A DNA stretch of 64,000 bases from Dissulfuribacter thermophilus (GTDB lineage: Bacteria; Desulfobacterota; Dissulfuribacteria; Dissulfuribacterales; Dissulfuribacteraceae): NCBI RefSeq assembly GCF_001687335.1, contig NZ_MAGO01000002.1, forward strand, positions 124,001-188,000. Direction: 5' to 3'. A model generated the notes under the pieces. It was not told where the DNA came from. It was given only the letters and a program-made list of their open reading frames with translations, and ran no database searches. The first letter of the stretch is position 1, and every line of letters starts with the position of its first letter. Positions 7,683 to 56,749 of the stretch are shown one piece after another. The position numbers and the translations under genes were made by a program.

Positions 7683-8562
7683 TGATTATCTCCTTTGCCT
7701 GCGTCCTCAAACTCTTTTTCGCAAGCGCCTTTAAAAAAAACTGCCTCTTTTTACATGAAGAATGGCCCAGGGTACTAAATTTAAACTCTTCAAAGTCGGC
7801 TGTTACCCTTTGACCACTTGAAACATATACAACATCTACACTCAGATCCGCAACAATTTCTCTTACACGGCCTCTGTCTTTTAGCTCGTCAACCTTTGTC
7901 AATACAAAGGCGCATAAGGGAAATTCATAGATTTCACGAACAAGTGCCTTTAAATCCACTGGATTCATGTTTGAAGGCATCACTGCCAATGCCTTAAGAC
8001 CTGGTGTTGCTACAAAAAACCTTTTCAGTCTATCCCTCTTTTCTTCATCAAAAAGGTTAACTCCTGGAAAGTCTGCAAGTAGAATTTCGTCCTCTGCTGA
8101 GGCTGATACAATCCTTAGCAATTCCAATGGAGTCTTTGCATTATAATATGGTATCTCAAGTATATGGGAAACCTTTTTGAGGGCCTCATGAGCGCCTAAA
8201 CGTATGTTATCAACGTTTACTATCTTTACCCTGTAACCCTTTTGTTTAAATCTGAATGCAAGTTTCAAAAGAACTGTGGTTTTACCACTACCAGATGGGC
8301 CAATAATGCCGAAAAATTTGGGACTTGCGCTCAATAATTCATTTTCTGTGCAATAGAGCTTACGCCTTGATATTGACCTTGCGTCAAATTCGTCGTGCTG
8401 GACCTCATCTAGGTCCACTGCTGCAACTACTTCAAATAGTCGTGCTCCGTTTTCCCCTTCTACGGATCCAGTTTCAATAATTACGGCGTCATCGCCCATA
8501 TTCTTTTTGACCAATTCAAAGGCAGACGCCATGTCTCTTGCACGAAATCTTTGAATCTTCAT
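7666..8562 (-). CDS. flhF: Flagellar biosynthesis GTPase FlhF, short form
   Basis: 298-residue SRP-type GTPase, clearly shorter than the usual ~380-450. The start MKIQRFRARDMASAFELVK is typical FlhF. The P-loop GPSGSGKTT comes at ~88-96, leaving little room for the B and N domains. TKVDEL is the G4 motif. The G3 motif, DTAG in most FlhF, is DFPG here, so nucleotide turnover may differ. FlhF sets the site of polar flagellum assembly. It begins directly before the flhA stop codon. Confidence 0.9.
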   Translation of the reverse strand: MKIQRFRARDMASAFELVKKNMGDDAVIIETGSVEGENGARLFEVVAAVDLDEVQHDEFDARSISRRKLYCTENELLSASPKFFGIIGPSGSGKTTVLLKLAFRFKQKGYRVKIVNVDNIRLGAHEALKKVSHILEIPYYNAKTPLELLRIVSASAEDEILLADFPGVNLFDEEKRDRLKRFFVATPGLKALAVMPSNMNPVDLKALVREIYEFPLCAFVLTKVDELKDRGRVREIVADLSVDVVYVSSGQRVTADFEEFKFSTLGHSSCKKRQFFLKALAKKSLRTQAKEIISGIHP

Positions 8563-10677
8563 TTATCCCAGACGAATTCCTCCTATTGATTCAAGTTTTA
8601 CATAACTTGGAATTTCGGAATGAGAAAGCACTACTACTTGTGGTATAAACCTCTCAATGAGTCTTCTTAGGTGCCTTCTGATTTGAGGACTCGTCAAAAT
8701 CACAGGCTGGTGCCCCTGATTTGTCACCTGCTCACACGCATCCTGAACGGCCTTGATGATCCTCTGGGCTGTTCCCGGATCAAGTGACATATAGCTACCA
8801 TGTTCTGTATGTTGAACTGCTCCTTTGATCATGTCTTCAATGCTTGCATCCAATGTAAGCACCCTAAGTGTCCCATCTTCTTGCACCAGGGGTTTAACAA
8901 TGGCGCGACCAAGCCTTTGCCGGACATATTCAGTCAAGATCTCCGGGTCTTTGGTCATTGGCCCAAAGTCTGCTAAGGTCTCCACAATTGTCAATAGGTC
9001 TCTAATAGACACCTTCTCGCGAACAAGGTGTTGAAGGACCTTTTGTATAATTCCAAGGCTTAAGGCCTGAGTGGCCTCTTCTACGGCCTTTGGATGATGC
9101 TTTGCCAGTGCATCCAAGAGCCTTTGAACTTCCTGGCGTCCCAATAGTTCGTCAGCATTTTGACGTATTATCTCAGCCAGATGGGTAGCAATAACAGTAG
9201 AGGGATCCACTACAGTGTAGCCTGCGAGCTGTGCCTCTTCTCTTTTTTCTTCAGGTATCCATATAGCAGGGAGTCCGAAAGCTGGCTCTTTAGTGGGTAT
9301 TCCTTCGATTTCCTTTGAGACATCCCCTGGATTTATGGCTAGGTATTGGCCCATAATGACTTCGCCCTTTGCTATATCAATCCCCTTAATAAGTACTACA
9401 TACTGCCCTGGATTCAGTTGGAGATTGTCCCTAACATGTAGAGGGGGAATGAGTATCCCCATTTCCTGTGCAAATTGTTTTCTAATTGAACGAATCCGCT
9501 CCAAAAGGTCACCTCCCTGGGATTCGTCCACTAAGGGGATCAGACCGTAACCCACTTCAAGTTCCAATATATCCAGGGATAAAAGACGCTCAATCTCCTC
9601 AGGGGCTGATTCACCTGAAGGAGTTTTTTCCTCCTTGGCCTTTTTTTCTTCTTCCTCCACCTCTTCTATAATATGCCTTTTTTTCTCCCTTAGAGTAATC
9701 CAGGCCAAGGTACCAAATATTGAACTTAAAAGAAAAAAAGGAAAAAAGGGAAGACCAGGTATCATCCCAAAGATAGCTACAACCCCTGCTGCCACGATCA
9801 TTGCCTCTGGATTAAGTGAAAATTGCCTTACAAACTCCTTCCCCATGCCAGCGTCTGAGGCTGCGCGGCTCACTAGGATTCCAGAGGCGGTTGATACTAT
9901 GAGAGCTGGAATCTGGGAGACAAGTCCGTCTCCAATAGTCAAAAGCGTGTAGCTTTGAGCTGCAGCTCCAATATTGAGGTCTTGTTGAAAAACCCCAATA
10001 ATAAAACCACCGATGATATTGATTGACATAATTATAAGGCCTGCTATGGCCTCGCCTCTAACAAATTTACTGGCACCATCCATCGCCCCATAAAACTCTG
10101 CTTCCCGTGCAATCTCTTGCCTTCTTCGCCTAGCCTCATTCTCATCTATGAGGCCGGCATTGAGGTCTGCATCAATTGCCATCTGCTTACCTGGCATGGC
10201 ATCCAAGGTAAAACGAGCTGCAACCTCTGCTATTCTTCCAGCACCCTTGGTGATGACAACGAAATTAATGATGACGAGTATGGCAAAGATGATACCACCT
10301 ACAACGTAATTCCCACCCACTACGAATTGGCCAAATCCCTTAATGATATTTCCAGCAGCATCGACCCCTGTATGCCCTTGCAGGAGGATCAGTCTCGTAG
10401 AGGCTATATTTAAGGATAGACGAAATAGAGTAGTTAAGAGAAGTAGGCTAGGAAATATAGGAAAGTCAAGGGGCTTGATAATGTAGAGCGAAAGAAGCAT
10501 CACAAGGAGACTAAATGTAAAGTTAAAGGCAAGCAGTATGTCCATGGCTGCTGCCGGAACAGGCATTACCATGATGACCAGTATTGCCAGCACACCACCA
10601 GCAGCAATAAGGTTATTGGACTCAATAGGGAGAATCGATGTAATCCTGCCCATTGTAGATGCTGGGGTTGCTGCCAC
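8563..10677 (-). CDS. flhA: Flagellar type III export gate protein FlhA
   Basis: 704 residues, full family length. The N-terminal half has about eight membrane helices (ILVIMVMPVPAAAMDILL ..., FPSLLLLTTLFRLSLNIASTR) and the conserved FHIPEP-region signature GAMDGASKFVRGEAIAG. The C-terminal half is the soluble domain that docks chaperone-substrate complexes. The start is taken as GTG 10677, with AGGGGGA nine bases upstream; an ATG eight codons later is possible. A 169-base gap with no gene separates it from flhB. Confidence 0.95.
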   Translation of the reverse strand: MAATPASTMGRITSILPIESNNLIAAGGVLAILVIMVMPVPAAAMDILLAFNFTFSLLVMLLSLYIIKPLDFPIFPSLLLLTTLFRLSLNIASTRLILLQGHTGVDAAGNIIKGFGQFVVGGNYVVGGIIFAILVIINFVVITKGAGRIAEVAARFTLDAMPGKQMAIDADLNAGLIDENEARRRRQEIAREAEFYGAMDGASKFVRGEAIAGLIIMSINIIGGFIIGVFQQDLNIGAAAQSYTLLTIGDGLVSQIPALIVSTASGILVSRAASDAGMGKEFVRQFSLNPEAMIVAAGVVAIFGMIPGLPFFPFFLLSSIFGTLAWITLREKKRHIIEEVEEEEKKAKEEKTPSGESAPEEIERLLSLDILELEVGYGLIPLVDESQGGDLLERIRSIRKQFAQEMGILIPPLHVRDNLQLNPGQYVVLIKGIDIAKGEVIMGQYLAINPGDVSKEIEGIPTKEPAFGLPAIWIPEEKREEAQLAGYTVVDPSTVIATHLAEIIRQNADELLGRQEVQRLLDALAKHHPKAVEEATQALSLGIIQKVLQHLVREKVSIRDLLTIVETLADFGPMTKDPEILTEYVRQRLGRAIVKPLVQEDGTLRVLTLDASIEDMIKGAVQHTEHGSYMSLDPGTAQRIIKAVQDACEQVTNQGHQPVILTSPQIRRHLRRLIERFIPQVVVLSHSEIPSYVKLESIGGIRLG

Positions 10678-10846
10678 TATTGAATGTCCCCCTGCGTGTT
10701 TAGGCTAAGGTCTAATAAATTAGATTTTGCTCTTAAGGTACTCATAGCATTTGTCATTTTTTTGTCTCTTTTTTTGCTCCTTGAAATTAATTAAGCAAAA
10801 TAAATGCCACACATAAGTCTTCATGGTTCTAAGGCCCGTTTAATCA

Positions 10847-11914
10847 TCATTGAACCTTTCCCTTCAACCTGTAAACATAGGCCAGAACTTCGGCCACAAC
10901 CTTATAAAGGCTCTCTGGAATAATGTCTCCCACATTACAAGACCGAAACAGGCTCTGTGCAAGGGGCTTATTTTCCACTACTGGGACATCGTGCTCATAG
11001 GCTATATCTTTTATCCTCTGGGCCACATAACCAGATCCTTTGGCTACTACCTTTGGAGCGTCCATGGCACCGGGCTCATATCGCAAGGCTACAGCAAGCT
11101 TCGTAGGGTTAGTGATCACAACGTCGGCCTCTGGGACTTCGGCCATCATGCGCTTCCTTGCCATCTCTCTTTGTATGCTCCTGATCCTTGACTTTACTTG
11201 AGGATCACCTTCGGTCTGCTTGAATTCCTCTTTTAGCTCCTGACGCGTCATGCGAAGATTTTTTTCAAAGTCCCACCTCTGAAACAGATAATCCAAAATC
11301 GAAAGTACAATCATCACTGCACATGTCTTCCAAAAGATCGCAAAACTGACCTGTCCAAGATAGGCCAGGATTTGAAAGGGACTCTTCTGTAACATCAGCG
11401 GGATATTTTCAAACTCAGCCCTCACGGTCACATAGGCAACATAGCCTACCACTGCCACCTTAAATAGACTCTTCAGGAGTTCGGCAAAAGATTGGGCGGA
11501 AAAGAGTCGCTTAACCCCTTCTAACGGATTGATACGCGAAAATTTTGGCACAAGTGGTTCACTAGTAAATATGAATCCAAACTGAAGTATATTTGAAAGT
11601 ATTGCCAGGACCACCACTACCAAAAAGATTGGCGCCAGTATCACAAAGAGCTGTTTTATTATGAGATATGAAACTCCAAGGATATTTGTATCATCAATAC
11701 TTATGCTGCCAACACGTCCAAAATAGTATCGCAGGCATATAGTCAACTGGTGATAAAAGAAGGCGCTCCCCCAATACAGTGTAAATAGCCCACCTAGAAG
11801 GACGGACACTGAGGCAAGCTCCCTGCTCTTTGCTACCTGTCCCTTTTCTCTTGCCTCTTGCCTCCTTCGCGGAGTGGCCTTTTCAGTTCGTTCTTGAAAG
11901 CTCTCATCAGGCAT
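10847..11914 (-). CDS. flhB: Flagellar export switch protein FlhB
   Basis: 355 residues, the usual length. The N-terminal tail is ERTEKATPRRRQEAREKGQV, followed by four membrane helices and a cytoplasmic domain with the self-cleavage site NPTK (VVITNPTKLAVAL). FlhB switches export from rod/hook to filament substrates after cleavage between N and P. It lies between fliR and flhA, as in most bacteria. The short gap before fliR holds a TCAAAACTCAAAACT motif related to the inverted repeat near 43.5 kb. Confidence 0.96.
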   Translation of the reverse strand: MPDESFQERTEKATPRRRQEAREKGQVAKSRELASVSVLLGGLFTLYWGSAFFYHQLTICLRYYFGRVGSISIDDTNILGVSYLIIKQLFVILAPIFLVVVVLAILSNILQFGFIFTSEPLVPKFSRINPLEGVKRLFSAQSFAELLKSLFKVAVVGYVAYVTVRAEFENIPLMLQKSPFQILAYLGQVSFAIFWKTCAVMIVLSILDYLFQRWDFEKNLRMTRQELKEEFKQTEGDPQVKSRIRSIQREMARKRMMAEVPEADVVITNPTKLAVALRYEPGAMDAPKVVAKGSGYVAQRIKDIAYEHDVPVVENKPLAQSLFRSCNVGDIIPESLYKVVAEVLAYVYRLKGKVQ

Positions 11915-11960
11915 GGGCTTTTTTCTCCCTTAACTCAAAACTCAAAACTTTTTTGAGAGC

Positions 11961-12755
11961 CTATCTCCCAGAAAAGGCCTGGAGCAGGTCTGGCAAAATT
12001 TTAAGTCCAGTATCTAGTTCTTTTGCCAGTGTAGGCCAAAATACCTGGAGCGTTATCCCCAAGAAAAAGAGTCCGAGTATGACATTCATTCCAAAACTCA
12101 TCATTAGCATATTCATTTGCGGCACTGTCTTTGCTAGTATGCCCAAGGCTACCTGCCCCAATAAGAGGATTGCCATAACAGGGGCCATGAGCTTTATTGA
12201 CAGTACGAACATCTTATTTCCTAGTTCTACCATGAGGTCAAAAATAGGTTGACTTAGGTTTAATTCGCCGGGCTTAAGCAACCAAAAACTGTCATGGAGC
12301 ACTTTCAATACGTAATGGTGACCATTGGCTGTCAGAAAGAGAAGTAAGGCAAAAAGATACGCAAACTGCGAGATGACCACTGACTGGGTCCCGGACTGAG
12401 GATCAACGACGTTTGCAACACTGAATCCAATCTGAAAACCAACCATCTGCCCTGCTGTCTGAAGCCCCGCAAATATTAGCCTTAGGATCAGGGCAAGACT
12501 CATCCCCACAAACAACTCACTTACTACAAAGAGAATAAATTGAACTGCCTCTCTTGGAAGTTGCTCTGGTGTTAGAGGGACAAGTGGGGTCAACACCAAG
12601 GAAACTACTATGGTAAATGCAGCCTTTACCTGGATTGGAAGTACCCTGGAACTAAACACTGGCATCATGAAAAAAATTGCCCCGACTCGCATGGCCACTA
12701 GCACGAATACCTCAAAGTATTGGATCAAAAATATGTAAATTTCTGCCTCTTTCAT
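11961..12755 (-). CDS. fliR: Flagellar export gate protein FliR
   Basis: 264 residues, about six membrane helices, with the family pattern VAMRVGAIFFMMPVF near the start, LIFAGLQTAGQMVGFQIGFS in the middle and QVALGILAKTVPQMNMLMMSFG after it. FliR sits in the FliPQR core of the export gate. Its ATG overlaps the fliQ stop by four bases. Confidence 0.96.
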   Translation of the reverse strand: MKEAEIYIFLIQYFEVFVLVAMRVGAIFFMMPVFSSRVLPIQVKAAFTIVVSLVLTPLVPLTPEQLPREAVQFILFVVSELFVGMSLALILRLIFAGLQTAGQMVGFQIGFSVANVVDPQSGTQSVVISQFAYLFALLLFLTANGHHYVLKVLHDSFWLLKPGELNLSQPIFDLMVELGNKMFVLSIKLMAPVMAILLLGQVALGILAKTVPQMNMLMMSFGMNVILGLFFLGITLQVFWPTLAKELDTGLKILPDLLQAFSGR

Positions 12756-33117: not shown

Positions 33118-33582
33118 ATGAAGATATTTCCAGGGACATCACCAAAGACACCTACAATTGAAATAAATAACGATCCAAAGACCACAAATGAAAAGGGAGG
33201 CAAGGCTGTAGGAAGATTTGATGAAATCCTACGCGAGAAGACTGCTGTTTCCAGTCCTAATCCCGCTTCTCCTGTAGATCCAATTCAAGGTATACAGGAT
33301 ACTTCGACGACTACTGATATACAAAAACATGCATTGAGTTATGGGGAAGAAAGCCTTACGTTCCTTGAACGCCTATCCTTTACCATTAAAGAAAACCCCC
33401 CTCAAAAAGATAAGATTTTAGAACAGTACCGTGATATTCTCAATGATCGTACCGAGACCTTAAAGGTCATTCGAGACCTCCTCAATGAAGGAGATCCACT
33501 AAGGGATACATTGAATGAAATTGGGGTAAGGACTGCGGTCGAGGCATACAAAATATATAGAGGCGACTACTCAAGTGGATGA
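33118..33582 (+). CDS. Hypothetical protein, possibly flagellum-related
   Basis: 154 residues, soluble, with no cysteine and no membrane helix. The N-terminal third is Pro/Thr/Lys-rich with VGRFDEILREK, a pattern seen at the start of some secreted flagellar proteins; the C-terminal ~70 residues are predicted helical (LEQYRDILNDRTETLKVIRDL). I do not recognise the family. Its stop overlaps the start of the next glycosyltransferase by four bases. Confidence 0.55.
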   Translation: MKIFPGTSPKTPTIEINNDPKTTNEKGGKAVGRFDEILREKTAVSSPNPASPVDPIQGIQDTSTTTDIQKHALSYGEESLTFLERLSFTIKENPPQKDKILEQYRDILNDRTETLKVIRDLLNEGDPLRDTLNEIGVRTAVEAYKIYRGDYSSG

Positions 33583-34277
33583 ACAAGACCATTTCTGTAA
33601 TTATCCCGTGCCTAAATGAAAAGGCTAATATAGGCAATTTGCTGAAGACAATCGAGGTGTTCGAGGACGTAGAGGCCATCGTTGTAGATGGTGGCAGCAG
33701 TGATGGCACCCCTGAAATAGCAAAGGCCCACAGGACAAAATTACTTAAAGCAGGAGCATGCAGAGGATCTCAGTTAAACGCAGGGGCAAGGGCTGCAGGG
33801 GGTGATATATTTTTTTTTGTCCACGGCGATTCAACTATACCCAGGACGTTTAAAGAAGACATATACCAGATACTCCTGAAAAAAGGGGCAACCTTAGGGG
33901 CATTCAGACTAAAAATAGATTCTCCATCACCTCCATTCAGGCTCGTAGAAACCATGGTCAATCTGAGATCCTCAATTCTTTCATTGCCATATGGGGATCA
34001 AGGGCTCTTTATCAAAAGGGAGGACTTCTTTAGTGCCGGTGGCTTTAAAGACTATCCAATAATGGAAGATTTCGATTTTGTAAGGAGGATGAAAAAGAGA
34101 GGGAGGATTTTACTTGCAAGATCCCATATAAAAACTTCTCCAAGACGCTGGGGAAAATACGGGATCCTAAGGACAACGTTTTTAAATCAGTTGATTATAC
34201 TCGGTTTTTTCCTAGGCGTCCCTCCCAACCACCTAGTTCGTCTGTACTATCCACGAAAGACAAGAAAAGACTTATGA
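33579..34277 (+). CDS. Family 2 glycosyltransferase, TIGR04283 (arsenosugar-type) group
   Basis: 232-residue GT-A glycosyltransferase: ISVIIPCLNEKANIGNLL, VVDGGSSDGTP, the metal-binding FFVHGDSTIP and PYGDQGLFIKREDFF. GACRGSQLNAGARAA with these motifs is what I associate with TIGR04283, a group named for arsenosugar biosynthesis contexts; this is pattern recognition without a search. A C-terminal hydrophobic segment (LNQLIILGFFLGVPPNHL) may touch the membrane. It overlaps the following convergent ferredoxin gene by six bases. Confidence 0.8.
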   Translation: MNKTISVIIPCLNEKANIGNLLKTIEVFEDVEAIVVDGGSSDGTPEIAKAHRTKLLKAGACRGSQLNAGARAAGGDIFFFVHGDSTIPRTFKEDIYQILLKKGATLGAFRLKIDSPSPPFRLVETMVNLRSSILSLPYGDQGLFIKREDFFSAGGFKDYPIMEDFDFVRRMKKRGRILLARSHIKTSPRRWGKYGILRTTFLNQLIILGFFLGVPPNHLVRLYYPRKTRKDL

Positions 34278-52546: not shown

Positions 52547-55500
52547 TTAAAGAAACGATACACCTTTAAGGCCATATTTTTTACTGGGATATAGGCAGCA
52601 GGCCCTCTTAATACACTCCCTGTTCCTGTCATATTGAGTACATATGAGATCATGATCCGCCACGAGGTTTATATCAAGATATTTTTCAGAGAATCTCTTT
52701 GCCTCTTTAAGGGCAATATAGGATTCCCTTTGACAACACCTTGAGGCGACCCTTTCCCCTATCTTTAGGAGTACTTCTCCCACAATCTTCTGGACAATGG
52801 ACCTAGCTCGTGGACTCAACGGAGATGAGTCCAATAGGACTGAAAATGCCACTCCAACCCCTATAGCGGCCCCACAAGAGCCCATAAACCCACATGCTCC
52901 GCCTGGAACTTTAGAGCCCTTTTCAATGGCAGCCAAAATCTTTTCATCGCCAATATCGCCTCCGAGATTTTTATAGGTTGCGAGAATAATTCCCGGAACC
53001 ATGGCGTGATGTTCTGGACCATGCATTGGAAACCTTGGATTAGTCCTAATGCGCTTCATAAGACTTATCATGTCTGTTTCTGTCGTATTTATGGCGAGCT
53101 CTCTAATCACTTCAAGTGGTTCTTCTACATGACACGAGTCACAGCAAAAGTGTCCCTTAATACACCTTGTCTGGGTCTTGAAAACAGTCCCACAGATATC
53201 GCACTCTAGTTTGACAGGGGTATCCAAATAGACAATGGGAGCGCCACACAAAAGGCATCCGCTAGGTTGTTTTGGCCTGATTCGTTCCTTTGGCATTACC
53301 TGAGCCAGATTTGGACTAGAGCAACATGAACATGACCCGTCATCTAGCTGATTTAGGGCCTCGCCACTGTGAGGGTCAATCTTTAAAACCAGATCATCAG
53401 GAAGGTCTTCGGAAATATCATGGGAAATACCCTTTGTAGTTCCTTTTGTTAGTAAGGTACCATCCTTTAAAAAAAGGCCCTCGATAGGCCCTTTCAACAG
53501 GGCATTTATCTTCTTTTCTTTAGGCCGATCCTCTAAGGGCTTTTTGGCTTCGAAAGTAAGGCTGTAAAACCTGTGACCTGAGACCTCCCTATAGGGAAAT
53601 CGTTTTATTATCTTTGAATGCTCAAAGCCTAAATCCCTCAACATGGAAAAGAGATAGGACTGAACAAGGGCTCCTCCCAGACACTCGCCAACAAGGACCT
53701 TATTTCCCCGTATCCAAGGCATTGGTTCACACTCTGTCACCACGTCTGAGATAACTATTCTTCCTCCGGGCTTGAGACATCTAAAGGCCTCCTTTAAAAC
53801 TCTCCGCTTGTTCTTTGTAAGGTTTAAGACACAGTTGGATATAATGCAGTCCAAGGTCCCTGACTCTATGGGGATATCCTCCAAATGGGCCTTTATAAAA
53901 CTGATGTTGTCGTAACCAAGGCCTTTTACTATTGAGTGTTTCCCCTCATTAGCGACCTTTAACATTTCGTCAGTCATATCTAACCCTATCACCCTGCCTG
54001 ACGGACCAACCTTTTTTGCGGCAATTAGACACTCTACACCAGTACCGCATCCAAGGTCGCAAACGTATTCACCTGCCTGAAGCAGGGCATCCTCCACAGG
54101 ACTTCCGCATCCGTAAGACCTTTCAATATTCGCCTTGGGCACAAAATTTATCCCTTCTATCCCTGAAAGAGTAGGATTCTGGATCTTTTTGTCGGGTTCT
54201 TTCACTCGTCTTGAATAAAATTCCTGAACAAGCCCCCTCTGATCCCCTTGCCCCATAGAAAGTAGACAGTTTGAATGAAGAAAATTAACATCTTTAATTT
54301 CATGACATTCAAACGAAACATCACCCATCTTTAAGACAACTCCCATGTTATTCTCACGCTTTGGGAGTCCATTACACTCAAATTTGATAGCATATTGAAT
54401 CATTGCTTCATAAAATGGGGAGTTGGGATCAGGATTCAGTGAAAAGCCTTCATGATTTTTGAGGGGCTCAAGACAATGATCAATATCTCCTCCTCCTGTG
54501 AGGAAATGCCATGGATCCTCTCTCATCTCTTGGGAATCAATGAGGCTTAAGGACCTGATCTCCTCCAGTTTAGGGGAAGTTTTCCATATGTCCAAAAGGT
54601 CTTCGCCGCCTTTTAAAAGTTCTCCACACAGAAAACCAGGTCTGTCAACTGTTGCAGGGGTTGGCCAGACCTTTCCATCCGGTCCAACACACAGGGACTC
54701 CCATCCCGCACTTCCAAGATCATAACGAGTGCCAGGAGGAGAAAAGACTTGAGAGCGTATTGCATCGAGATTGTCCACCTCTATACCAAGGCAATCAGCC
54801 TCCTTGAGAAAAGAGGCGAAGTTTTCTATGAGCAATTCATCTTCAGAGACTGAGAGCCCAGTTCCTGCCCCCTGATCAAAATGCCAAAGGAGATGACACC
54901 CAGTAATCCCCAAATCCTTTAGTATATGAAGAGTCTCTTTTATATGATGGATAGTAATTTTATTTACGCTCATTGCGCAGGTAACAGAAAAGCCTCTTTC
55001 AATCAACGACTCTATTCCTGCCTTTGCCCTGTCAAAGCTCCCTTTCCCTCGAATAGAATCGTGAATATCTTTAGGCCCTTCTAAACTGACCTGAAAATGG
55101 ATCCTGTCTTTTTTCAAAAAAGAAAAATCTTTTAAAAGATCCTGGCAGAGAAGCCCATTTGTAAGTACTGCTATCTTTAAATTGGGGATATCCATGCAGT
55201 ACCTTAAGATGCTATCGAAATGGGGATAAAGGAAGGGTTCACCCCCTGTAAAACAGACTACATTAAGTCCGTGATCAATGGCCTTTTTTATGGCCTTTTT
55301 TACTGTATCCTCTTTTAATGTCCTATTTCTCGCCCTAAATTCAGAAAAAAGGCAATGTCTGCAGGAAAGATTGCACCTGTCCAAAAGGTGGAACCATAGC
55401 TCACGTAGGCCCTCTAGCCCCTTTCCTTTTCTACCTTCGTATGGAGAGACAGGTGGAATGGTAATCGACCCCAAAAAGTGCCGCGCCTCAAAAAAGGCCC

Positions 55501-55676
55501 GTTCTGGTCCAATGCTAAAATTGATAAGGCTCCTTACAATCTCTTTTTCACATAACTTTTGAATATCTTTTAAAATGGTATCTGCCCTTTCATTAACTAC
55601 AAACCAAAAAGGCACCTCAGGAAGTACGTAGGTCCTGTCCCCTACCCTCTTTAAAAAAAAGGTCTTGAATGGTCAT
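52547..55676 (-). CDS. Tri-domain protein: radical SAM + ArsM-like methyltransferase + DUF5714, with a T8 frameshift near the start
   Basis: The continuous frame from GTG 55615 gives 1022 residues. (1) A radical SAM domain has CX3CX2C (CNLSCRHC, Cys81/85/88), TGGEPFLYP and a SPASM/twitch-like tail. (2) A class I methyltransferase (~490-710) matches arsenite methyltransferases: SYGCGSP, CDLGCGTGVECLIAAKKVGP, LDMTDEML, SNCVLNL, GECLGGAL. (3) A Cys-rich linker (SCSCCSSPNLAQ) leads to DUF5714 (~790-1022), with two CxxC pairs, HHAMVPG and CGFMGSCGAAIGVG. Upstream of the GTG the frame still reads protein-like (KRVGDRTYVLPEV). An ATG at 55676 starts MTIQDLF in the next frame; removing one T from the T8 run (55653-55660) joins them. 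The chemistry may concern a thiol-bound metalloid or a radical-assisted methylation; that is inference. Confidence 0.82.
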
Positions 55677-55966: not shown

Positions 55967-56749
55967 TTAAATAAGTTTTTTATAATAAGGACATTTTTCC
56001 TTCCTACATCCATGGGGATGAAACGTATCGTAATTACAAACTATTCTTTGTTCAGGTCTAGTCAGCGAAATATTTAGTTCTTCTTTCAAGAATTTTAAGG
56101 CTATTTCCAACGATTTCCATGAATAAGCTTTACAACAGCTTGGGCCAGTAAGCTCAGCGACTGCCTGAGCAATTTTTGCTGTCACATTCATGGTTGTCTT
56201 TTGTTCTCTGTCAGTACCGCATTTTGCCCCTAATAATATGGAAAAACATCCACCAATTGCAGGGACAATTCCGCATACTCCAGTTAAACCACAATAGCCA
56301 CTAAAAGCCTGTTTACTAATTCTCGAAAATACTTCATCAAAAGTATCTTCTGCTATGGTTGTTTTTCCTGCATTCTTAATGGCTGCCAAAAGTGATCCTG
56401 CTACCATAAAGGCATGATGGCAGCCTAGCATTGATATATTTGGAGATTCCAGTATTGATTCAAATATGTGAAAAGGGTTGTCGGAAGTTGTGGCCAAACA
56501 TATTTCCTTTGTTTTTTCAATGGCTGGTCTATTGTGGCAATCTTCACAGATAGCATGACCTTTTGAACAAATTATATATCCTAAAAATTTTTTCCCACAA
56601 TAATAGCATATAAATCTCTTCTCTTTTAAATGATATTCAAGGGGTGCACCACATATCAAACAATCGTTTATTTCGGTTTTCGCCAGATCTGGCGAACTGT
56701 GGTTTGGCTGTCAGCAGCCAGTTGTAATGGGTTGTATCTTACCTATCAT
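55967..56749 (-). CDS. DUF5714 protein, probable selenoprotein (in-frame UGA = Sec13)
   Basis: 260 residues if the TGA at 56711-56713 is read as selenocysteine. The ATG at 56749 follows AGAGGT at good spacing. The N-terminal peptide has TTGCU (Gly-Cys-Sec), then SSPDLAK, which matches the SSPNLAQ linker of the tri-domain neighbour. The body is DUF5714: CLICGAPLEY, CYYCGKKF, GCHHAFMVAGSLLAAIK, GLTGVCGIVPAIGG and GPSCCKAYSWKS. Starting after the UGA needs a TTG at 56659 that cuts the conserved zinc ribbon (loses DC of DCLICG). A stem-loop sits at SECIS distance. Function unknown; a redox or metalloid-binding role is suggested by Cys and Sec. Confidence 0.75.
56679..56713 (-). promoter_or_regulatory. 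UGA codon and candidate bacterial SECIS stem-loop
   Basis: On the minus strand, UGA (56713-56711) is followed after 14 bases by UUCGCC-AGAUCU-GGCGAA (56696-56679), a perfect 6-bp stem with a six-base loop whose second base is G. The loop lies 20 bases after the UGA, within the range used for bacterial SECIS elements. A second small hairpin (UGGCUG/CAGCCA) spans the UGA itself. Confidence 0.65.

Follow-up and report, generated by a model that had tools for sequence, protein, structure and literature searches.

We describe a gene in a stretch of 64,000 nucleotides from Dissulfuribacter thermophilus (the window; contig NZ_MAGO01000002.1, positions 124,001 to 188,000, assembly GCF_001687335.1) whose product joins a radical S-adenosylmethionine (SAM) half, an ArsM-type arsenic methyltransferase and a DUF5714 domain in a single chain. 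This fused protein is probably a bifunctional enzyme that forms arsenic-carbon bonds, first methylating As(III) and then alkylating the resulting methylarsenical, and so takes the place of the separate enzymes ArsM and ArsS. Genome comparison suggests that it performs these two initial reactions of arsenosugar synthesis in many relatives of sulfate reducers. The fusion gene appears to stand in for ArsS in arsenosugar-type gene sets, and the link of the three-domain fusion to arsenosugar synthesis is new. A search of open-licence papers found neither a report of a radical SAM-ArsM-DUF5714 fusion nor any paper on DUF5714. The evidence favours an ArsM joined to an ArsS-like half that differs from ArsS in descent. 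The domains, the conserved ligands, the accompanying genes and the exclusion of ArsS are observed, whereas the substrate, the order of the steps, the radical transfer and the role of DUF5714 are inferred. A first-pass annotation of the window had proposed that the fused modules carry out sequential steps on one thiol-bound metalloid. This proposal is supported by the ArsM identity of the methyltransferase, by its invariant arsenic-binding cysteines, by the arsenosugar-type gene sets and by the apparent replacement of ArsS. The features under discussion are collected in Table 1.

Analysis of the methyltransferase part identified it as an ArsM. Pfam Methyltransf_31, Methyltransf_11 and Methyltransf_25 match within residues 514-629 (up to 105 bits), and the best NCBIfam match is the arsenite methyltransferase profile NF008823 (194.7 bits, E 2e-57), whose cut-off of 263 bits is reached neither by the window protein nor by L007 (239.7 bits), a two-domain relative that consists of radical SAM and ArsM parts without DUF5714. 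The best PDB match of this part is also ArsM. In the predicted structure, the middle part of the chain matches the ArsM structure 6cx6 with a Z score of 26.9 (root mean square deviation 2.1 over 223 residues) and human AS3MT with 21.0, while the best match to a non-ArsM methyltransferase, at about 20.6, falls below 6cx6. The two-domain relatives align with CrArsM (5evj) through its C-terminal domain. CmArsM binds arsenic at C72, C174 and C224 (PMC3877260), and the three aligned cysteines of the fusion are invariant in all 25 three-domain and all 6 two-domain proteins compared. The YGCG and GECLGGAL motifs singled out by the first-pass annotation are present and hold the first and third of these residues, and GECLGGAL does carry an arsenic-binding cysteine of ArsM, as stated there, C645 being aligned with CmArsM C224 (PMC3877260).

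The methyltransferase tree, in which the outgroup consists of two rows only, places the window protein on the ArsM side. The three-domain proteins form one clade (support 96/99, the Armatimonadota row being left out) and a second clade (98/97) takes in most other stand-alone ArsMs; neither clade includes the ArsMs of arsenosugar-type genomes or the two-domain proteins, and the deep forks are unresolved. Grouping of the methyltransferase with non-metalloid families, which had been named beforehand as a reason to give up the metalloid proposal, was seen neither by profile nor by structure nor in the tree. The fusion is the sole ArsM found in its own genome.

What is established about arsenosugar synthesis comes from work on ArsM and ArsS. 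In a set of 247 genomes from the phylum, ArsS (TIGR04167) exceeds its cut-off in 73, the glycosyltransferase TIGR04283 does so in 97, and the three-domain fusion is present in 21, which represent 13 families and include some copies split by a frameshift or contig end. The fusion and ArsS do not occur together in any of these genomes (0/247, Fisher p 7e-4), while TIGR04283 exceeds its cut-off in 19 of the 21 fusion genomes (p 6e-7). The TIGR04283-positive genomes divide into 58 with ArsS, 19 with the fusion, none with both and 20 with neither, and the probability of finding no overlap within this set is 9.9e-10 when counted by genome and 1.9e-7 when counted by family, with the families tallied by hand. 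The 20 genomes with neither include one with the two-domain fusion (G061) and two with a split form (G067 and G104). The D. thermophilus genome has no ArsS over the TIGR04167 cut-off and carries its TIGR04282 gene on another contig. As a separate observation, a single in-frame TGA occurs in many of the phylum's ArsS genes, which is what the selenoprotein form would show.

Gene order further ties the fusion to the arsenosugar-type glycosyltransferases. At L005 the three-domain fusion is followed directly by a TIGR04282-TIGR04283 fusion in which both profiles exceed their cut-offs. TIGR04283 or TIGR04282 adjoins the fusion or lies within about 8 kb of it at L005, L084, L086, L088 and L090 (profile-confirmed) and is near it, as judged by homology, at L087, L122, L123 and L124; the recurring neighbours are related glycosyltransferases, VTT (TMEM64) proteins, GT87, GT2 and rhodanese. 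As a control, ArsS was found near TIGR04283 in 8 of 20 inspected ArsS genomes (7 to 8, depending on contig ends), and the fusion lies by TIGR04283/TIGR04282 at least as often. A reference set with ArsS, L023, has the order ArsM, TIGR04169, ArsS, TIGR04282 and a PHO4-like gene, and its ArsM is close to that of the fusion. The loci of the split forms, L128 (G067) and L127 (G104), have the order TIGR04282, TIGR04169, a stand-alone relative of the fusion's radical SAM half and TIGR04283, with TIGR04282 of L127 cut off by the contig end and the TIGR04169 matches scoring 109 and 114 bits, just below the cut-off of 120. The stand-alone radical SAM gene takes the ArsS slot in these two sets, and both genomes are without an ArsS over the cut-off.

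The radical SAM half has its CX3CX2C motif (C81, C85 and C88) where it had been noted. In the structural model, the first half of the chain matches the SPASM/twitch proteins CteB, anSME, ChlB and PqqE with Z scores of 21-29 (28.9 for CteB). The SPASM-like tail of the first-pass annotation therefore stands as a fold, whereas the auxiliary-cluster cysteines kept by two-domain relatives are largely missing: the four C-terminal columns of the auxiliary [4Fe-4S] cysteines are empty in all 25 three-domain proteins and the other columns are occupied in 1 to 7 of the 25, as against retention in 4-5 of 6 two-domain proteins. A canonical SPASM domain with auxiliary clusters was accordingly rejected for the three-domain form. 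At the N-terminus, the PqqD profile PF05402 is above its cut-off only in the two-domain relative L126, and the window protein has no Pfam PqqD match. In the radical SAM tree, the three-domain, two-domain and stand-alone split forms share one group (96/87), from which ArsS, TrsS and a set of SPASM-type enzymes of the order are separate. Some long branches, among them those of two unrelated proteins from the window genome that fall inside the group, leave the detail of this tree unsure.

Several results weigh against an arsenosugar-type enzyme. The radical SAM half of the window protein scores 52.2 bits against TIGR04167, far below the cut-off of 300 and over profile positions 7-151 only, and its nearest profiles are Rv1681, NirJ2, AhbD and maturases of ribosomally synthesized and post-translationally modified peptides (RiPPs); orthology with ArsS was rejected on the TIGR04167 score. 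Of the 25 three-domain proteins, 24 have lost the N-terminal ArsM cysteine motif LCCP (the window protein has QN for CC), which the two-domain proteins retain. In human AS3MT, C32 and C61 are needed to methylate arsenite but not methylarsenite (PMC3877260). LCCP is, by alignment position, the likely counterpart of C32, so the first methylation may differ; judged from its sequence, the fused enzyme may favour methylarsenite or use another cysteine instead. The TIGR04283 gene of the window lies 18 kb from the fusion and is not adjacent to it. In the other 17 TIGR04283 genomes with neither ArsS nor the fusion, no such ArsM or radical SAM gene was found near TIGR04283, and TIGR04283 alone is therefore no proof of arsenosugars. 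Counting the exclusion of ArsS and fusion by family takes care of common descent only in part.

The proposed bifunctional enzyme would work as follows. Trivalent arsenic held by the ArsM cysteines (C503, C595 and C645) would be methylated by SAM, and the methylarsenical would then be passed via protein thiols (C437, C450 and the CxCC linker) to the radical SAM half. Reductive cleavage of SAM would generate a radical, for which 5'-deoxyadenosyl, the group used by ArsS, is the most likely identity; its addition to arsenic would give a nucleoside precursor, to be elaborated by the TIGR04283/TIGR04282 glycosyltransferases. Our guess for DUF5714 is that it most likely binds the trivalent arsenical, or else a metal centre that holds arsenic and thiols in the reduced state. 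Radical SAM formation of C-As bonds has precedent in adenosylation by ArsS and in aminocarboxypropyl transfer by ArsL (PMC12159101, PMC8552651). A more specific form of this proposal, which we put forward tentatively and would not ourselves bet on, is a single-chain arsenosugar-precursor synthase in which DUF5714 and the CxCC linker form a built-in carrier of trivalent arsenic, and which arose outside cyanobacteria, in anaerobes, as a non-orthologous replacement of ArsS.

The C-As bond could also be made with a group other than 5'-deoxyadenosyl, such as the 3-amino-3-carboxypropyl group of ArsL/ArsM arsinothricin synthesis or an alkyl group from another substrate, giving an organoarsenical that is not an arsenosugar. 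ArsL-ArsM and ArsS-ArsM are both known pairs, the radical SAM half falls outside ArsS by tree and cut-off, and the second-best NCBIfam profile of the methyltransferase is the arsinothricin ArsM NF040538 (153.7 bits, cut-off 500). As the company of the gene and its lack of overlap with ArsS favour the ArsS reaction, however, we regard this outcome as unlikely. We also doubt an explanation by detoxification of arsenic or another metalloid (Sb, Te or Se), in which ArsM methylates, redox chemistry or metal sequestration falls to the radical SAM half and DUF5714, and the glycosyltransferase link is incidental. Although DUF5714 genes occur near ArsR-type regulators, MbdU is named as metal-binding and other ArsM fusions are selenoproteins, the fusion excludes ArsS and not ordinary ArsM, a second ArsM is retained in some fusion genomes (G114 and G120), and most stand-alone ArsMs belong to their own clade.

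Two further explanations fare less well. The PqqD/RRE-like N-terminus and SPASM fold might bind a peptide that is also modified by the methyltransferase and DUF5714, as in a RiPP-type maturase, and the best structures for the N-terminal half do include the maturases CteB (from residue 1), ChlB, SuiB and TigE. The small open reading frames (ORFs) beside 18 fusion loci nevertheless hold no obvious shared precursor, although short divergent precursors could escape such a comparison, and the strongest widely shared small-ORF matches that were located run antisense to a VTT gene. With the SPASM auxiliary-cluster cysteines lost, and with the invariant arsenic-binding cysteines and the glycosyltransferases left unexplained by a peptide substrate, a maturase is highly improbable. 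There is a similarly slight chance that the TIGR04282/TIGR04283 guild builds another glycoconjugate on which the fusion acts, with or without arsenic. The 20 TIGR04283-positive genomes without ArsS or three-domain fusion would fit such a guild, as would the VTT/TMEM64 gene found near TIGR04283, with no ArsM or radical SAM gene, in 8 of 17 inspected genomes (L140, L142, L143, L144, L147, L152, L154 and L155); moreover, the TIGR04282 and TIGR04283 family names rest on curated profiles, and no experiment on these families was found. The sets with ArsS or the fusion, on the other hand, include an ArsM-type methyltransferase with invariant arsenic ligands.

Returning to the proposed bifunctional enzyme, its third module begins behind the cysteine-rich SCSCC linker that had been noted, now located at residues 761-765. 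A C-terminal CC like that of the fusion linker is also found in most two-domain ArsM relatives. DUF5714 together with its zinc-ribbon-like start has 14 cysteines that are invariant across the three-domain set, and residues 774-1011 match the profile of the metal-binding double selenoprotein MbdU (NF045648) with 129 bits, not reaching its cut-off of 600. The domain was modelled alone with a predicted local distance difference test score (pLDDT) of 85 and a predicted template modelling score (pTM) of 0.79, and Foldseek returned no PDB match (best E 0.78). VIA-align gave the cysteine desulfidase CyuA with Z 5.6 over 143 residues (next 3.6), which is below the trusted level and is therefore taken as a lead to an Fe-S site only. 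A profile search with the N-terminal part of DUF5714 gave only zinc-finger or ribbon matches at E 0.01 or worse. The genome's only other DUF5714 gene stands alone just upstream of the fusion on the same strand; its counterpart in G002 sits on another contig.

DUF5714 was also surveyed in other loci. At L132 it accompanies a TrsS radical SAM gene, a DVU_1556 methyltransferase and a DVU_1553 ligase (8177-12304), and at L025 of Bacteroidota (9995-12729) it is fused, in a different order, to a radical SAM domain that groups with TrsS, with a DVU_1556 methyltransferase adjoining. It lies near an ArsR-type regulator and a DGC protein at L131, and near an ArsR-type regulator at L120; at L137 its neighbours are corrinoid methyltransferase genes together with CobW and RACo. 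DUF5714 therefore recurs with radical SAM enzymes, methyl transfer and metal handling, yet is not arsenic-specific. The absence of a metal or radical SAM link among its neighbours, named earlier as the other possible refutation, was not observed, given the TrsS, ArsR-type and corrinoid or metal genes.

The joining of three modules in one protein is borne out by Pfam and NCBIfam matches far above chance and by intact homologues. Full-length homologues at 37-56% identity in 13 families of the phylum exclude a chance fusion. The full-chain AlphaFold2 model, from a 31-row alignment, has a mean pLDDT of 86 and a pTM of 0.73. The boundary at 55676 given earlier had to be corrected: the span up to it takes in an ATG at 55674 that does not share the reading frame of the fusion and whose own frame (MTIQDLF..) runs into a stop, while the ORF on the minus strand starts from the GTG at 55615. 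Relatives of the fusion start about 20 residues ahead of a PxWF motif, and thus have a longer N-terminus than the window protein. As a T8 run divides the ATG from the main frame, the start is either the GTG or the ATG joined by an indel or slippage. The window protein has no in-frame TGA by ORF check, and selenocysteine was rejected for the fused family, the TGA of G053 being a terminal stop and the fusion of G256 being split into two frames.

About 25 homologues have all three domains. A scan of genomes turned up the full fusion in Desulfurivibrionaceae, in Desulfocapsa and in one further bacterium, as well as a 5'-truncated copy on an Armatimonadota contig. Of 60 relatives of the window genome, about a dozen carry fusions that are near full-length or split, the closest at 56%. 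The two-domain form is found in Scalindua and other anammox bacteria, Omnitrophota, Hydrothermarchaeota and other archaea (L007-L022), and its presence in archaea (L016, L017 and L014) suggests transfer between domains. Scalindua loci, including L007 (1370-9906), place the two-domain gene with DUF547, thioredoxin-like, FMN reductase, AhpD-like, PHO4, GT2 and DUF3179 genes, and this conserved anammox gene set is a candidate organoarsenical cluster.

Table 1 Features of the fusion gene and associated genes, in window coordinates
Feature	Position	Strand	Remarks
Three-domain fusion gene, radical SAM - ArsM - DUF5714	52547..55615	-	1022 aa from GTG; stop included in coordinates
T8 run between upstream ATG (55674) and main frame	55653..55660	-	True N-terminus may be affected by an indel, assembly error or slippage
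N-terminal PqqD/RRE-like domain	55436..55615	-	Residues 1-60; CteB 5wgg aligned from model residue 1
Radical SAM core	54926..55381	-	Residues 79-230; PF04055 92 bits
CX3CX2C motif	55352..55375	-	C81/C85/C88; conserved in 23/23 three-domain, 6/6 two-domain proteins
SPASM/twitch-like region	54464..54727	-	Residues 297-384; usual auxiliary-cluster Cys set missing
Inter-domain stretch with C437 and C450 (HSNC)	54266..54307	-	Both Cys invariant in 25/25 three-domain proteins
ArsM-type methyltransferase with ArsM-like C-terminal subdomain	53345..54241	-	Residues 459-757; by NCBIfam, PDB, structure, tree
C503 (YGCG)	54107..54109	-	CmArsM C72 by alignment to 4fr0
C595 (SNCV)	53831..53833	-	CmArsM C174 by alignment to 4fr0
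C645 (GECLGGAL)	53681..53683	-	CmArsM C224 by alignment to 4fr0
Cys-rich linker SCSCC	53321..53335	-	Residues 761-765; CC or CxC in 24/25 three-domain proteins
Zinc-ribbon-like part ahead of DUF5714	53126..53266	-	Residues 784-830; CxxC..CxxC..C..H..C..CH
DUF5714 helical domain	52589..53107	-	Residues 837-1009; PF18978 203 bits, cut-off 26.2, full profile 1-173
Stand-alone DUF5714 gene, MbdU-like, LGCHHA type	55967..56659	-	313 bits to NF045648
TIGR04283 arsenosugar biosynthesis glycosyltransferase	33579..34274	+	245.7 bits, cut-off 182

If a second, unrelated line of radical SAM enzymes does the ArsS step, surveys that search genomes for ArsS overlook the pathway in many genomes of the phylum, and, should the two-domain form do likewise, also in anammox bacteria and some archaea. 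The fused enzyme would offer a direct handle on the passage of a reactive trivalent methylarsenical between active sites, and DUF5714, a domain of unknown function, gains a testable role.

Comparison with known systems serves to place the fusion among them. It shares with ArsM/AS3MT (NF008823; CmArsM 4fr0 and 6cx6; CrArsM 5evj) the fold, the arsenic-binding cysteines and the C-terminal subdomain, and differs in the added radical SAM and DUF5714 parts, the score under the cut-off and the loss of LCCP. With ArsS it has in common the company of TIGR04282, TIGR04283, TIGR04169 and ArsM genes as well as the CX3CX2C core, although the two belong to different sequence families that match in the core only and are mutually exclusive in distribution. 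The two-domain radical SAM-ArsM proteins have the same N-terminus, radical SAM and ArsM parts and the same invariant arsenic ligands, but are without DUF5714 and, in Scalindua, have a different neighbourhood (PHO4, DUF547, AhpD-like, GT2). ArsL and ArsM of arsinothricin synthesis (PMC8552651) likewise act in turn on one arsenic atom as radical SAM enzyme and methyltransferase; unlike the fusion they are separate proteins. MbdU shares DUF5714 with its zinc-ribbon-like start and has two selenocysteine residues, whereas the fusion has none and joins the domain to radical SAM-ArsM. The sets of TrsS, DVU_1556 methyltransferase and DUF5714 (L132 and L025) bring the same trio of domain kinds together in one locus, but with a radical SAM enzyme of another family (TrsS, related to the tetraether synthase Tes) and a methyltransferase that is not ArsM.

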